In this document: positions 35,889 to 39,812 of the stretch, in pieces
Layout: every line of letters begins with the position of its first letter
Position numbering within the stretch: position 1 is the stretch's first letter
NCBI RefSeq assembly: GCF_014189455.1
Contig: NZ_CP050296.1
Span: 3,468,001 to 3,532,000 of the forward strand
Reading direction: 5' to 3'
Length of the DNA: 64,000 bases
DNA from: Mesorhizobium huakuii
Lineage (GTDB): Bacteria > Pseudomonadota > Alphaproteobacteria > Rhizobiales > Rhizobiaceae
Notes under the pieces: model-generated
What the model saw: only the letters and a program-made list of their open reading frames with translations
Database searches by the model: none
What the model was told of the DNA's origin: nothing
Program-made: the position numbers and the translations under genes

Positions 35889-36761
35889 TCAGGCCGCTGC
35901 CGGGATTGAGTCCCGGATCAGCGAGGACCAGCGCCCCGGCGTCATGCCGAACGCCTTCTTGAATTGCCTGTTGAAATGGCTCTGGTCGGTGAAGCCGGCC
36001 TCGACCGCGATCTGCGCCAGGGGCTCGCCGGCGGCGATCATCCGCCGCGCGCGCTGAAGCCGGCGCATCACCAGGAAACGATGTGGACTGGTCGAGAAGG
36101 CGGCGCGGAAATGCCTCGATAAGGCATAGCGGTCGAGCCCGGTGACGGCTTCCAGTTCGCCGGAGCGCACAGGGCGCGTTGCATTCTCAGTCAGATAGTC
36201 CCGCGCCAGCGCCGCCGCCCGCCACGCCGTCCTCGCCATCGGTTTCGCCGGCTGACCGGCATGCCGTGCCAGGCTTTGCATCAGTTGCGTGAGAAAATCA
36301 TCGACGAACAGCTCGTCGAGTTCCTGTTGCAACGGCCCCAGCGCCGAAAGCAGCGTGGCGCAGAAGGCGTCGTCCTTCACAACGGCATCCCTGACGAAGG
36401 GCAGCGATGCGCCGCCAAGGCAGTCCAGCATCAGCGAGGGGTCGAGATAGAGCATCCTGTAGCGCAAGCCGTCCTCGCTGCCGGCGCCGCCATCATGCAA
36501 TTCGTCGGGATGCAGCACGATGATCTGGCCGGGCAGGCTTAGCCGCGTCGCGCCGCGATAGCGAAAGGTCTGCACGCCCTGCAGCGTCACCCCGATCGCG
36601 TAGGTGTCATGACGATGCAGATCGAAGGCGCTGCCGTGAAAGCGCGCTTCGATCCGCTCCATGCCCGCAGGGTCGGGAGCCGAGATGATGCAGTTTTCCG
36701 CCGCATCGGTGCACAAACGTCCAAGACCCTCGAAGGCCTGGCGGCCTAGATCGTGCGACAT
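35889..36761 (-). CDS. AraC-family transcriptional regulator
   Basis: 290 residues. An N-terminal AraC-type cupin domain (FDLHRHDTYAIGVTLQGVQTF) is followed by a C-terminal double HTH (residues ~195-285; LEAVTGLDRYALSRHFRAAF and IAVEAGFTDQSHFNRQFKKAFGMTPG). The ATG at 36761 has an ideal AAGGAGA site. The open frame continues much further upstream, but that part lies antisense to the next gene and is rejected. It is divergent from the DUF2000 gene (51 bp), its likely target. Confidence 0.92.
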   Translation of the reverse strand: MSHDLGRQAFEGLGRLCTDAAENCIISAPDPAGMERIEARFHGSAFDLHRHDTYAIGVTLQGVQTFRYRGATRLSLPGQIIVLHPDELHDGGAGSEDGLRYRMLYLDPSLMLDCLGGASLPFVRDAVVKDDAFCATLLSALGPLQQELDELFVDDFLTQLMQSLARHAGQPAKPMARTAWRAAALARDYLTENATRPVRSGELEAVTGLDRYALSRHFRAAFSTSPHRFLVMRRLQRARRMIAAGEPLAQIAVEAGFTDQSHFNRQFKKAFGMTPGRWSSLIRDSIPAAA

Positions 36762-36812
36762 CGTCTCCTTCAGCCCCGACATCGGGGCGCAACCTCGAAT
36801 GGCCCATTTTTC

Positions 36813-37220
36813 ATGTTCGATACGAAATTTGCAATCGTGCTGCGGGAAGACTTGCCCGTCTGGCAGAAGCTCAACGTCACCGCCTTCCTGACCAGCGGCA
36901 TCGTCGCGCAGTTTCCCGACATCATCGGCGAGCCATATCGCGACCGATCCGGCAATCTCTACAATCCGCTGTCGATCCAGCCGGTCATCGTGCTGTCGGC
37001 CGACCAGGCGACGCTGGCCACCATCCACCGGCGCGCGCTGGAGCGCGGCGTGACGACCTCGCTCTATGTCGAGGAGATGTTTTCCACCGGCTTCGACGCC
37101 GCCAACCGCGCCGTTTTCGCGCAATTCGCGCCGGAAGACGCCAAGGTGGTCGGCATCGCCCTGCGTGCCGAGAAGAAGGTGGTCGACAAGATCACCAAGG
37201 GCGCCCGTATGCATACATAA
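36813..37220 (+). CDS. DUF2000 family protein
   Basis: 135 residues matching DUF2000: FAIVLREDLPVWQKLNVTAFLTSG and HRRALERGVTTSLYVEEMF. The family is a small cytoplasmic fold related to peptidyl-tRNA hydrolase II and has no proven function. In many Proteobacteria it sits beside an AraC regulator, as here. It ends five bases before the convergent efflux gene. Confidence 0.85.
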   Translation: MFDTKFAIVLREDLPVWQKLNVTAFLTSGIVAQFPDIIGEPYRDRSGNLYNPLSIQPVIVLSADQATLATIHRRALERGVTTSLYVEEMFSTGFDAANRAVFAQFAPEDAKVVGIALRAEKKVVDKITKGARMHT

Positions 37221-37225
37221 GGATT

Positions 37226-38463
37226 TCAACCAGCTCGCTGCCGCCGATCGAGATGAGCGGCATACAGTGCCGCCGACAATGCGAGTGCCGCAGATATCAG
37301 CATCGTGACCAACAGCGCAGGGATTGACCTTGCCAGGAACAGGCCGGCGATGGCGGCTATGAGTGCCCCGCCGCCGATCCGCATTGCGGCGGCCAGTCCT
37401 GCGGCGGTGCCGACCAGGTCCTGTCGTACCGACAAGGCGCCGCTGTTGGCGGCAGGCATGGTCAATCCATTGCCGACGCCAATGAACAGGCAAGGTCCAA
37501 AGAAGGCCAGGATGTGCGTGATGCCAAAGCATGACAGGACCAGACCGACCAACAGGCCGGCGCAGGTCAGGAGGCGCGCAAGAACGAGTATGGCGCCCAG
37601 TGACGTCTTCGAGGCGTAACGCCCGGCCAGATAGCTGCCGAGAATGAAGCCGGTCGGAACCAGTCCCATGTAGAAGCCGAGCTTCGCGCTTGATCCACCG
37701 AGCGCGTCACCGACGACCAATGGGGCTCCGCCCAGGAACACATAAAGCACCCCCATCGAGGCGGCCATGCACAGTGTGTAGCCCCAAACCGCGCCGAACC
37801 CAGGAGCACCCGATAGGAGGCAAGGTAGTTCCTGTTCGATCTCGGCAATGGAATTCTTCTGATCTCGCGCATGGACAGGGCGAAGGCAGTTATCCCGAGG
37901 ATCGCAAAGACAACGAAGCTTGAGCGCCATCCGAACAATTCGTCCAGCGACCCGCCAAACAAAGGACCGACCATGGGCGCCAGCGCCCACCCCATGGCGA
38001 GATAACCGAATTTGCTGGCGGCTTCGCGCTCGTCCGATGTCTCCTTAACGATGACCAGAGCGACCGAATAGCAGGGGCCGATGCACGCCTGCATCGCGCG
38101 AAACAGAAGAAAAGTGCCGATATTGGGAGCCAGAGCGCAGCCGATGGACGCCGCGACAAAGATCGAGAGAGATATCAAGACGACCGGCCTGCGCCCAAAT
38201 CGGTCCGATAGTGTGCCTCCGATGGCCTCTATGACGGCGGTGATGATCGCAAAGCCGGCAACCGACAGATTGACCAATGCGAAATCGGCTCGGAACGTTG
38301 CGGCAATGTTCGGCAGCGACGGCAAAATCATGTTCACCGGCAACACGGCAAGAGCCGAAAGCAGGATAAGGGTAATTAGCCGGGGTGGAGCAACGGGTTT
38401 GGTGATGACCGTTGTCTCGAGCATGTCCGTGCCCGGACTCCGAATGGGGTTATCGTTCGCCAT
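37226..38463 (-). pseudogene. MFS efflux pump of the Bcr/CflA drug-resistance type, one frameshift
   Basis: The first ~225 codons give six membrane helices with the MFS loop GGTLSDRFGRRPVV and motif ALVIVKETSDEREA. Reading then breaks. Restoring one T in TTT at 37786-37788 (reverse strand) joins SYRVLLGSARF to WGYTLCMAASMGVLYVFLGG in the next frame, which supplies the last six helices to the stop at 37226. A single homopolymer deletion thus splits a normal ~410-residue pump. Relatives export chloramphenicol, bicyclomycin and similar drugs. The gene follows an elaborate leader (38528-38718) with short ORFs and a terminator. Confidence 0.83.
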
Positions 38464-38527
38464 GATCTCGCTCGCCTTGTCGGTGGATTGAAGGGAGGGT
38501 CTGACGGGGCGGCTAAATTCCGGGCAT

Positions 38528-38549
38528 AAAAAAGGCCCCGTCAGGAGCC
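38528..38549 (-). terminator. Intrinsic terminator in the efflux-gene leader
   Basis: On the minus strand GGCTCC, loop TGAC, GGGGCC and six Ts form a six-pair stem with one G-U pair and a perfect U tract. It stands 65 bases before the efflux ATG with no complete gene upstream on that strand, so it probably attenuates transcription. Its CTGACGGGGC also matches GCCCCGTCAG at 38501-38510 (perfect 10-bp inverted repeat), giving an alternative fold. Confidence 0.75.
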
Positions 38550-38557
38550 TGCTTACC

Positions 38558-38604
38558 GCGCATGGGTGCTTTCGCCGGATGGTTACACCATCCTGCCCAT
38601 GCGC
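38558..38604 (-). promoter_or_regulatory. Nested stem-loop overlapping the leader ORF
   Basis: Reading the minus strand, GCGCATGGG (38604-38596) pairs perfectly with CCCATGCGC (38566-38558). Inside it GGATGG (38593-38588) pairs with CCATCC (38582-38577), and the loop contains the leader stop codon TAA. The 5' arms are codons 13-17 of the leader ORF, so ribosome position would decide whether the structure forms. This is the layout of a leader-peptide attenuator. Confidence 0.6.
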
Positions 38605-38639
38605 TCCCTTACGACGATCAAAGCCGTTGCGATGTTCAT
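38583..38639 (-). CDS. Candidate leader (arrest) peptide upstream of the efflux gene
   Basis: An 18-codon frame encodes MNIATALIVVRERMGRMV and stops inside the stem-loop at 38558-38604. The Arg-Glu-Arg tract is a +X+ motif like those that cause drug-dependent ribosome stalling in Erm-type leader peptides (known for other systems). No strong ribosome site is visible (TGGTGCC before the ATG). Placement between structured elements, ahead of a terminator and a drug-efflux gene, is the main support. Confidence 0.5.
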   Translation of the reverse strand: MNIATALIVVRERMGRMV

Positions 38640-38649
38640 GGCACCAGAG

Positions 38650-38718
38650 CTAGGCGCAAAAGGTGCATATCGTCAAGGCAGCACGCTCTCGACGTCGATC
38701 GGCAACAGAGCCATGCAT
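38650..38718 (-). CDS. Second candidate leader peptide
   Basis: A 22-codon frame begins MHGSVADRRRER and ends ten bases before the 18-codon leader ORF. It has a better ribosome site (GCAGG, four to five bases upstream) and a CTGGAG-TTG-CTCCAG hairpin just before that site. It also contains consecutive arginines. An overlapping 13-codon frame starts at 38714 (MALLPIDVESVLP). Which one is translated cannot be decided from sequence alone. Confidence 0.35.
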   Translation of the reverse strand: MHGSVADRRRERAALTICTFCA

Positions 38719-38870
38719 GTGGCCTGCTGGAGCAACTCCAGGAACAAGTGTGAAACGGTGAATTGATCTAAGCCTGTCGGAGCGTCTTGTTGTGCCAGGC
38801 GCTTTTGGCTTGCCGGCAAGCGACAATTCCCGCAAAGGTGGGCTCCAGCCCAGCTTTCCCCGGCCTGCAC

Positions 38871-39812
38871 GTGAATGCTTCCAAAAGATATGTCGAAAGC
38901 GCGACGCCGCCGGTGGCGATCCTGTGCATGCTCACCACCTACGTCTTCTTCACCTTCCTCGACACCTCAAGCAAATATCTCGTCCTGGCCGGCGTTTCCG
39001 CGCTGATCGTCGCCTGGGTGCGCTTTGCCGTGCATGTCTTGCTGGTCGGCACACTCCTGCGGAGCTGGCGCGATCCGATGCGGTTTCGCCCGGTCAACCT
39101 GCCGGCGCATGTGTTGCGCGGTGTGTTCCTGTTCGGCTCGACTATGTGCAACATCCTGGCCCTGCGCTCGCTGCAGCTGGCCGAGACGACGTCGATTTAC
39201 TTCTTCGGCCCGATGGTGATCACCGCACTTGCCGGCCCGCTGCTCGGCGAATGGGCCGGTTGGCGGCGCTGGCTGGCTATCCTGGCCGCCTTCGCCGGGG
39301 TCCTGATCATCACAAGGCCAGGTGTCGGCGTCTTCGGCATCGGCCATCTCTTCGCGCTCGGCTCGATGCTGTCGAACTGCTTCTATGTCATCATGACGCG
39401 CCGCATGTCGTCGACCGAGACGCCGGAAAGCCTGATCCTGTTTTCGGCGCTGGCGCCGGCGGTGCTGCTTCTGCCCATGCTGCCGTTTTCCTTCTCGCTG
39501 CCGCATGATGGCTGGCACTGGTTCATCCTGCTCATGCTTGGCGTGTTCGGTGGTGTCGGGCACTGGCTGCTGGTCCAGGCCTACCGGCTGGCGACGACCA
39601 CGGCGCTCGCCCCCTATCCCTATTCGCAGATGGTGTGGATGATCATTTCCGGCTGGATCGTCTTCAAGCAGTTCCCGGATCGCTGGACGCTGGTCGGCGC
39701 CGCCATCATCGTCGCCAGCGGGCTCTATATCGTCCACCGCGAGCACCGGCTTCGGCTGCAGAGCCGCGCGGCCTCCGATGTCGAGGCCGAGGCGCTGGCA
39801 AAAAAACTTTGA
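38871..39812 (+). CDS. DMT-superfamily (EamA) transporter
   Basis: 313 residues with ten predicted membrane helices in two EamA repeats. The first starts at AILCMLTTYVFFTFLDTSS and the second at GHLFALGSMLSNCFYVIMTR. Members export metabolites or drugs. The start is unclear: GTG at 38871 gives the expected N-terminus (NASKRYVESATPP) but lacks a good ribosome site, and no ATG is in frame before the first helix. A LacI regulator and a 2-hydroxyacid dehydrogenase follow, suggesting a shared substrate such as a hydroxy acid (inference). Confidence 0.83.
   Translation: MNASKRYVESATPPVAILCMLTTYVFFTFLDTSSKYLVLAGVSALIVAWVRFAVHVLLVGTLLRSWRDPMRFRPVNLPAHVLRGVFLFGSTMCNILALRSLQLAETTSIYFFGPMVITALAGPLLGEWAGWRRWLAILAAFAGVLIITRPGVGVFGIGHLFALGSMLSNCFYVIMTRRMSSTETPESLILFSALAPAVLLLPMLPFSFSLPHDGWHWFILLMLGVFGGVGHWLLVQAYRLATTTALAPYPYSQMVWMIISGWIVFKQFPDRWTLVGAAIIVASGLYIVHREHRLRLQSRAASDVEAEALAKKL

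Follow-up and report, generated by a model that had tools for sequence, protein, structure and literature searches.

Attenuation dependent on branched-chain amino acids (BCAA) was reportedly predicted by Vitreschak et al. in 2004 for the single ilvIH operon in alpha-proteobacteria, and the cmlA and erm genes use drug-stalled leader peptides. In the excerpts available of two papers, the 2004 prediction is cited for an 'ilvIH cis regulatory' element of S. meliloti (PMC2573895) and for an alpha-proteobacterial 'ilvB leader peptide' (PMC1273637). Excerpts of two further papers describe the trp leader of S. meliloti (trpL/rnTrpL), the transcript of which is leaderless and begins at the leader ATG (PMC7298713, PMC10117765). 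The locus considered here lies on the minus strand of a window of 64,000 nucleotides, that is, the whole stretch of DNA that was analysed. It resembles the ilvIH/ilvB attenuators of alpha-proteobacteria in its Leu/Ile/Val leader peptide, its terminator and its homologous sequence (same Rfam model), but it would control an MFS transporter, and in the accessory lineage to which it belongs an inverted repeat spanning the terminator is conserved in addition. With rnTrpL/peTrpL, as described in the excerpts of PMC7298713 and PMC10117765, it appears to share a leaderless leader ORF and the release of a small RNA; there, however, the codons are Trp codons and the leader products affect a multidrug efflux operon in trans, whereas here an MFS gene lies directly downstream. 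The short leader ORF before a resistance-like gene recalls the drug-stalled leaders of cmlA and erm, yet the conserved codons are nutritional and an R-E-R motif in the leader is unconserved. A BCAA attenuator on ilvIH had already been predicted, and the departure here would be an MFS gene under such a leader. A full-text search, the reach of which leaves most subscription papers outside, found no paper equating Rfam family RF02502, to which this element belongs, with a BCAA attenuator, and none placing an MFS gene under one.

When all Rfam families were searched against the 64 kb, RF02502 ('Atu_C8, Rhizobiales sRNA') gave the single gathering-level match, at 38518..38637 (-), where cmscan aligned the window element with all 122 positions of the model at 110.6 bits, against a cut-off of 50. 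Rfam files the family under the type 'Gene; sRNA', and it appears as a benchmark entry in the part of PMC5913331 available; here the full-length match acts like a 5' leader that carries a coding mini-ORF. The first-pass annotation had described at this place a leader-peptide attenuator candidate before a Bcr/CflA-like MFS gene, and as to its kind this description is supported: the 18-codon ORF, the nested stem with the leader stop in its loop, the six-U terminator and the pump ATG 65 nt on are all present on the minus strand. Conservation in relatives had been named beforehand as the point on which the annotation could fail, and the ORF, the stems and the terminator were all found to be conserved.

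Upstream of the leader, a -35-like box TTGACG (38671..38676, -) stands 37 nt before the leader ATG, and a tentative -10-like box CTAGCT (38648..38653, -) is suggested by a 17-nt spacer. A simple promoter scan gave no sigma-70-type site under its rule in the window leader region, and the TTGAC box was recognised solely through comparing relatives: in 132 of the 138 distinct copies its first base lies 35-38 nt upstream of the leader ATG, and SD-like bases precede that ATG in 4 of the 138. Because the -35 box stands at this distance, the transcript should begin at the leader ATG, and we infer a leaderless start for the leader ORF of the window (MNIATALIVVRERMGRMV, 18 codons, 38583..38639, -), which has a counterpart in the classified copies. 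Within it, the codons TTG ATC GTC GTA (Leu-Ile-Val-Val, 38610..38621, -), a proposed stall site at which Leu/Ile/Val is conserved in relatives, are followed by the stem P1, whose 5' arm GCGCATGGG (38604-38596) pairs with the 3' arm CCCATGCGC (38566-38558). P1 is nested around P2, in which GGATGG (38593-38588) pairs with CCATCC (38582-38577) and the stop TAA lies in the loop between the arms. The nested stem thus stands as annotated, but its 5' arm had been placed on leader codons 13-17, whereas codons 12-15 lie in the P1 5' arm and codons 16-18 in that of P2. A small hairpin P3, GC-GAAA-GC (38568..38575, -; 81% paired), and an intrinsic terminator (38528..38550, -) with its stem at 38550-38533 and its six-U run at 38533-38528 complete the leader, the U run ending 65 nt before the MFS ATG at 38463 (-). 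The terminator scan found this to be the sole terminator-like site within 38400-38900, where 0.3 were expected. The MFE fold of the window leader consists of P1, P2, the GAAA-loop hairpin and the terminator (z -2.49), and 3 of 200 shuffles folded as stably. Two short ORFs had been annotated, of which the 18-codon leader is conserved and the second is not; as a coding candidate the latter was rejected, its ATG-to-U-run distance modulo 3 being split 73/32/28, with stops in some copies and ATGCGC missing in 5 rows.

RF02502 is nearly ubiquitous in the bacterial family, with a match in 290 of 297 sampled genomes (above the cut-off in 283) and in 105 of 109 genera; the seven genomes without a match measure 1.2-2.0 Mb, and 13 of the 297 have two matches. 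The host genome, 8.4 Mb in four contigs, also has two copies, that of the window and one at G000:C1:149223-149343. When 144 element loci were sorted by protein motifs of the downstream gene, 117 were assigned to AHAS (acetolactate synthase), 26 to MFS and one (L104) remained unclassified. After removal of identical elements and with L104 left out, 138 distinct element sequences were retained, 114 directly before AHAS and 24 before MFS; since the loci were picked by score, genus and copy number, this ratio is no census. NCBIfam identifies the gene after the core copy of the host as acetolactate synthase large subunit (1218 bits, cut-off 974), and so it does, in another Mesorhizobium, for the gene that follows an accessory copy (1127 bits, same cut-off). 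Core leaders follow the pattern MK(K/T)ALILVGRRVGKAV in Mesorhizobium and patterns like MKNFAVILVVGRRMGRMV in other genera. Given AHAS genes downstream and core leaders of the Leu/Ile/Val type, RF02502 seems to be the BCAA attenuator of ilvIH; a family curated by Rfam as 'sRNA' would then act in cis, as an attenuator. The window copy itself precedes an MFS gene rather than an AHAS gene.

The leader codons point to the same amino acids. Counted from the stop, codons -13 to -9 encode Leu, Ile or Val in 438 of 480 cases (91%) among 96 distinct AHAS leaders and in 96 of 115 (83%) among 23 distinct MFS leaders, and the same stretch read in the other two frames yields 0-18% (87/480 and 0/480 for AHAS, 15/115 and 2/115 for MFS). 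At position -12 of the AHAS leaders, ATT (52), CTT (27) and CTC (10) replace one another, and this interchange of Leu, Ile and Val at one position speaks for selection on amino-acid class. All 23 MFS leaders have Val at -10 and -9, with Leu/Ile/Val at -12 in just 65%. Judged by codon pattern, the leader ORF reads as coding, and the Leu/Ile/Val run right before the stem is the part conserved as peptide. The window leader has two of the features expected of an attenuator, an in-frame run of regulating-amino-acid codons (LIVV) and an intrinsic terminator (38550-38528) between the leader ORF and the gene.

It is very probable that the locus is a leader attenuator of the BCAA type, in which a shortage of Leu/Ile/Val-tRNA would cause read-through and production of the MFS transporter. 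Transcription would start at or beside the ATG of the leaderless 18-codon ORF, as the promoter spacing suggests. With Leu/Ile/Val-tRNAs charged, the ribosome would pass the LIVV codons and arrive at the stop in the P2 loop, the terminator would form, and an RNA of ~110 nt would be released. If one of these tRNAs were short, the ribosome would stall on LIVV beside P1, folding of the nascent RNA would change, and the polymerase would read through so that the transporter is made; the direction of this response and a competing antiterminator fold are both presumed. The signal is most likely a shortage of branched-chain aminoacyl-tRNA, as the Leu/Ile/Val run is conserved and 114 of the 138 copies precede AHAS, the enzyme by which these amino acids are made.

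Over the 138 distinct rows of the family alignment, paired cells amount to 99.6% in P1, 91% in P2 and 98% (97.7%) in the terminator, and changes on both sides are seen in 14, 132 and 6 cells, respectively. Shuffled partners pair in 97.8% (P1), 78.6% (P2) and 96.9% (terminator) of cells, and partners slid by 1-3 columns in at most 65%, 52% and 85%, in controls that leave the relatedness of the rows uncorrected. Since shuffled partners pair almost as often as the true ones in P1 and the terminator, P2 alone is strongly supported by covariation; P1 and the terminator are mostly invariant. The P1 3' arm, (CC)CATGCGC at 38558-38566 (-), is nearly unchanged even in distant MFS leaders of a type termed B here, in other alpha-proteobacteria. 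Folding with ribosome masks (113 AHAS and 21 MFS rows, those lacking a letter in a terminator column, the window row among them, having been dropped) revealed no mutually exclusive antiterminator in RF02502-type copies, P(terminator) being 0.95-0.97 in AHAS copies and 0.86-0.96 in MFS copies at every ribosome position. In type-B leaders (L145, L146, L148, L151, L263, L265 and L269) the P1 3' arm continues into the terminator. For L151, P(terminator) falls from 1.00 to 0.10 with a ribosome just before P1 and is 1.00 again once P1 is covered; the dip is weak in L263 and slight in L146, with little or none in the remaining type-B leaders. In these folding models the classical attenuation logic is shown clearly in one relative only, L151.

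Other pairings were considered as partners of the terminator. AGGGAGC in the leader had been annotated as a possible partner of GCTCC in the terminator, but this pairing is not conserved, being only 63% paired family-wide (60% in AHAS and 78% in MFS copies). CAGGA/TCCTG was likewise rejected as an antiterminator, as it is 92% paired in MFS copies but 62% in AHAS copies. In a partner-swap energy test against the 5' arm of the terminator, the P1/P2 5' region came out at z -5.0 in AHAS copies and -1.9 in MFS copies. The other segments gave positive values: the spacer +4.5 (AHAS) and +0.8 (MFS), the interval from P2 to P1 +0.6 and +2.5, and the P1 3' arm with the linker +4.5 and +2.6. With relatedness uncontrolled, these values are suggestive only.

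The leader of the window was probably acquired from an AHAS gene. Compared with AHAS elements, 21 of the 26 MFS elements come closest to one that stands before an accessory AHAS gene (0.83-0.93 identity), a gene being called accessory where its genome has another AHAS-linked copy (G017, G089, G123, G208); the other five (L014, L106, L109 and two Devosia copies) have values of 0.72-0.82, and the best identity of MFS elements to Mesorhizobium core elements is 0.67-0.76. In four genomes (loci L009, L089, L092, L097) a second, accessory AHAS has its own leader and an N-terminal GYPGAA variant of the usual GYPGGA. A 10-bp repeat had been annotated as offering an alternative fold to the terminator: its 5' half CTGACGGGGC (38535..38544, -) occupies the terminator loop and 3' arm, and its 3' half GCCCCGTCAG (38501..38510, -) lies 17 nt past the U run. 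The repeat is real, but it is conserved in accessory-lineage copies only, and RNA that holds both arms is made only when the polymerase reads through. Between the terminator loop with 3' arm and the downstream site, 9 bp or more can pair in 15 of 24 MFS copies and in 4/4 accessory AHAS copies, in 0 of 110 other AHAS copies, and in 0.8-0.9% of shuffled sequences; in L142 both arms have changed together and 8 bp are kept. As the repeat is common to both, it supports the grouping of MFS with accessory-AHAS elements. The spacer and the first 33 nt of the gene in the window are alike to those of two accessory AHAS genes (z 3.7 and 4.6), with no likeness to those of two core AHAS genes (z 0.3 and 1.0). 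The same accessory leader, repeat and start region also precede an ABC exporter-type permease/ATP-binding gene in another genus of the family (L104:1141-2760, genome G327; spacer/start region against the window, z 3.4). Since the repeat and start region are common to the MFS genes, the accessory AHAS genes and L104, the unit that was transferred seems to be a cassette running from the promoter through leader, terminator and helix to the first codons. An accessory AHAS gene is the probable donor of the MFS leader and its start region, and the attenuator would thereby have passed as a module, along with an additional conserved helix, from one gene to an unrelated one.

The MFS gene resembles the Bcr/CflA efflux family, although this label is marginal. 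Its N-terminal part, a 298-codon ORF (37567..38463, -), scores 116.8 bits with TIGR00710 (cut-off 200.9) and its C-terminal part, in another frame (37226..37990, -), 56.0 bits over profile positions 208-378. The label is called marginal because five of seven intact relatives also fall below the cut-off (164.8-189.7), the other two reaching 223.4 and 219.6. The nearest solved chains are EmrD and MdfA, and the protein is a relative of drug exporters. Homologues at E 1e-30 or better occur in 17 of 146 genomes of the genus, with RF02502 upstream (98-116 bits) in 14 of the 17 and a TPP riboswitch (75-77 bits) in the remaining three, which are the most distant (44-51% identity). The TPP riboswitch RF00059, found upstream of the homologues L130, L131, L132 and L264, holds the corresponding position ahead of sister MFS genes (in L132, ahead of a NUDIX-MFS pair); unlike the window element it is a ligand-binding aptamer without a leader peptide, and it is absent from the window in the all-Rfam search of the 64 kb. 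In L132:882-2703 the riboswitch is followed by a NUDIX hydrolase gene and then by the MFS sister, possibly a thiamine-salvage operon.

An RNA-family search of the best 18 of 80 named loci from a genome-wide scan placed RF02502 upstream in the six closest, which include Rhizobium lusitanum P1-7, Devosia ureilytica XJ19-1 and a Devosia MAG, with none at gathering level in the other 12. By eye, mini-ORFs containing several codons for Leu, Ile or Val could be recognised in four of these 12 (Hyphomicrobiales, Pelagibius, Kiloniellaceae and Minwuia MAGs), together with a U run lying 51-62 nt ahead of the match start. An MFS relative at E 1e-90 or better is present in 143 of 297 family genomes. Among 30 family-wide MFS loci, six have RF02502 above the cut-off, three have type-B leaders (that of L263 scoring 30.5 bits with RF02502, below the cut-off) and one has TPP, and the other 20, nine of them checked by pattern only, have neither RF02502 or a type-B leader nor TPP. 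In a midpoint-rooted tree (78 candidates, 76 proteins and 75 tips, L121 and L139 being one locus; type-B labels assigned by eye), the labelled MFS proteins form one clade of 41 tips (support 0.66), comprising 25 tips with RF02502, 7 with type B, 3 with TPP and 6 without visible element. Scans gave no element at any of the 34 tips outside; of these and the six unlabelled tips inside, many were checked by pattern only. The three TPP tips cluster (1.0) inside a clade spanned by RF02502 tips (0.98), and this nesting suggests that one branch exchanged its attenuator for a TPP riboswitch.

The leader or TPP riboswitch upstream throughout the genus, the recurrence in Rhizobium and Devosia, and the likeness to accessory AHAS make it probable that the transporter has its role in BCAA/thiamine metabolism rather than in drug efflux; induction upon starvation would point to import or handling of a BCAA- or thiamine-linked compound. 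A supposed resistance switch thereby becomes a functional clue, as a clade of transporters with a drug-efflux label appears to be coupled to BCAA starvation, and one branch of it to thiamine pyrophosphate, which makes the transporter substrate directly testable. For the wider scheme the chances appear about even: the Bcr/CflA-like alpha-proteobacterial MFS clade would serve BCAA/thiamine metabolism, with an ancestral BCAA attenuator and a swap to TPP in one branch, and in Rhizobiaceae the AHAS-leader cassette would have become attached to a second AHAS, to the MFS gene and, on one or more occasions, to a gene of ABC exporter type. Several points count against a BCAA attenuator inducing this transporter: induction by starvation is odd for an exporter, the MFS protein is related to drug exporters, 6 of the 41 tips of the regulated clade have no visible element, the folding yielded no antiterminator in RF02502-type copies, shuffled partners pair nearly as well in P1 and the terminator, and Leu/Ile/Val stands at -12 in just 65% of MFS leaders.

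Alternatively, the attenuator would be of the BCAA type and the transporter a true efflux pump, expelling a blocker of BCAA synthesis or tRNA charging that is sensed by its effect. AHAS requires TPP, and an AHAS inhibitor or a thiamine antagonist could be expected to relieve a BCAA attenuator and, partly, a TPP riboswitch; the MFS protein is of the drug/H+ antiporter kind, and one related leader, that of L104, is followed by a gene of ABC exporter type. A nutrient transporter would agree with the regulation equally well or better, however, and we regard such a pump as unlikely, though a live alternative.

The MFS frame is broken in the assembly, split over 37567-38463 and 37226-37990, and the leader could therefore be a relic that controls nothing useful in this strain. 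This seems quite improbable, as every leader feature is intact, in 15 of 16 homologues in the genus the frame is open over 405-474 codons, measured from stop to stop (271 in G378), and a sequencing error may explain the break.

An attenuator in cis also accounts for the constant position of the element shortly before AHAS or MFS genes, for the conservation of Leu/Ile/Val in frame and for the stop codon within the P2 loop, all of which argue against an independent trans-acting sRNA to which the mini-ORF and the neighbouring gene are incidental. That reading, which agrees with the Rfam type and the expected terminated RNA of ~110 nt and has a parallel in the terminated trp leader RNA rnTrpL of S. 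meliloti, described in the excerpt of PMC7298713 as acting in trans, is very unlikely, and the released RNA may instead have a trans role alongside attenuation. Scarcely credible is the drug sensing put forward in the first-pass annotation, by which a ribosome-targeting drug would stall the ribosome at R-E-R and open the pump gene: the motif occurs in the leader of the window and is found in 9 of the 23 distinct MFS leaders, before a gene resembling the Bcr/CflA family, and a conserved Arg-Leu-Arg leader motif is so interpreted for another uORF in the excerpt of PMC8632094, but R-E-R is missing from all 96 distinct AHAS leaders and from 14 of the 23 MFS leaders, its codons sit next to and within P1, a nearly invariant stem, conservation falls on the codons for Leu/Ile/Val, homologous leaders precede a biosynthetic enzyme, and a sister group of the MFS gene has a TPP riboswitch. 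The broader pattern [RK]x[RK], found in 7 of 96 AHAS and 11 of 23 MFS leaders, is likewise not a conserved drug-stall motif.

Several minor observations concern the surroundings of the leader. Upstream of it, a stretch of ~30-50 nt at 38710-38759 (-), beginning CACCGTTTCACACTTGTTCCTGGAGTTGCTC, recurs at six other sites of the genome with 84-93% identity, and the dispersed copies have CCGTTTC-CACTTTTCCTGGA-TTGCT in common. The divergent neighbour at 38787-39812 (+) is EamA-like, a relative of amino-acid/amine exporters. On the other side, a neighbouring ORF at 35889-37532 (-) has a C-terminal AraC-type regulator domain, and an AraC-type gene is likewise located downstream of the MFS gene in Mesorhizobium sp. 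WSM4311.
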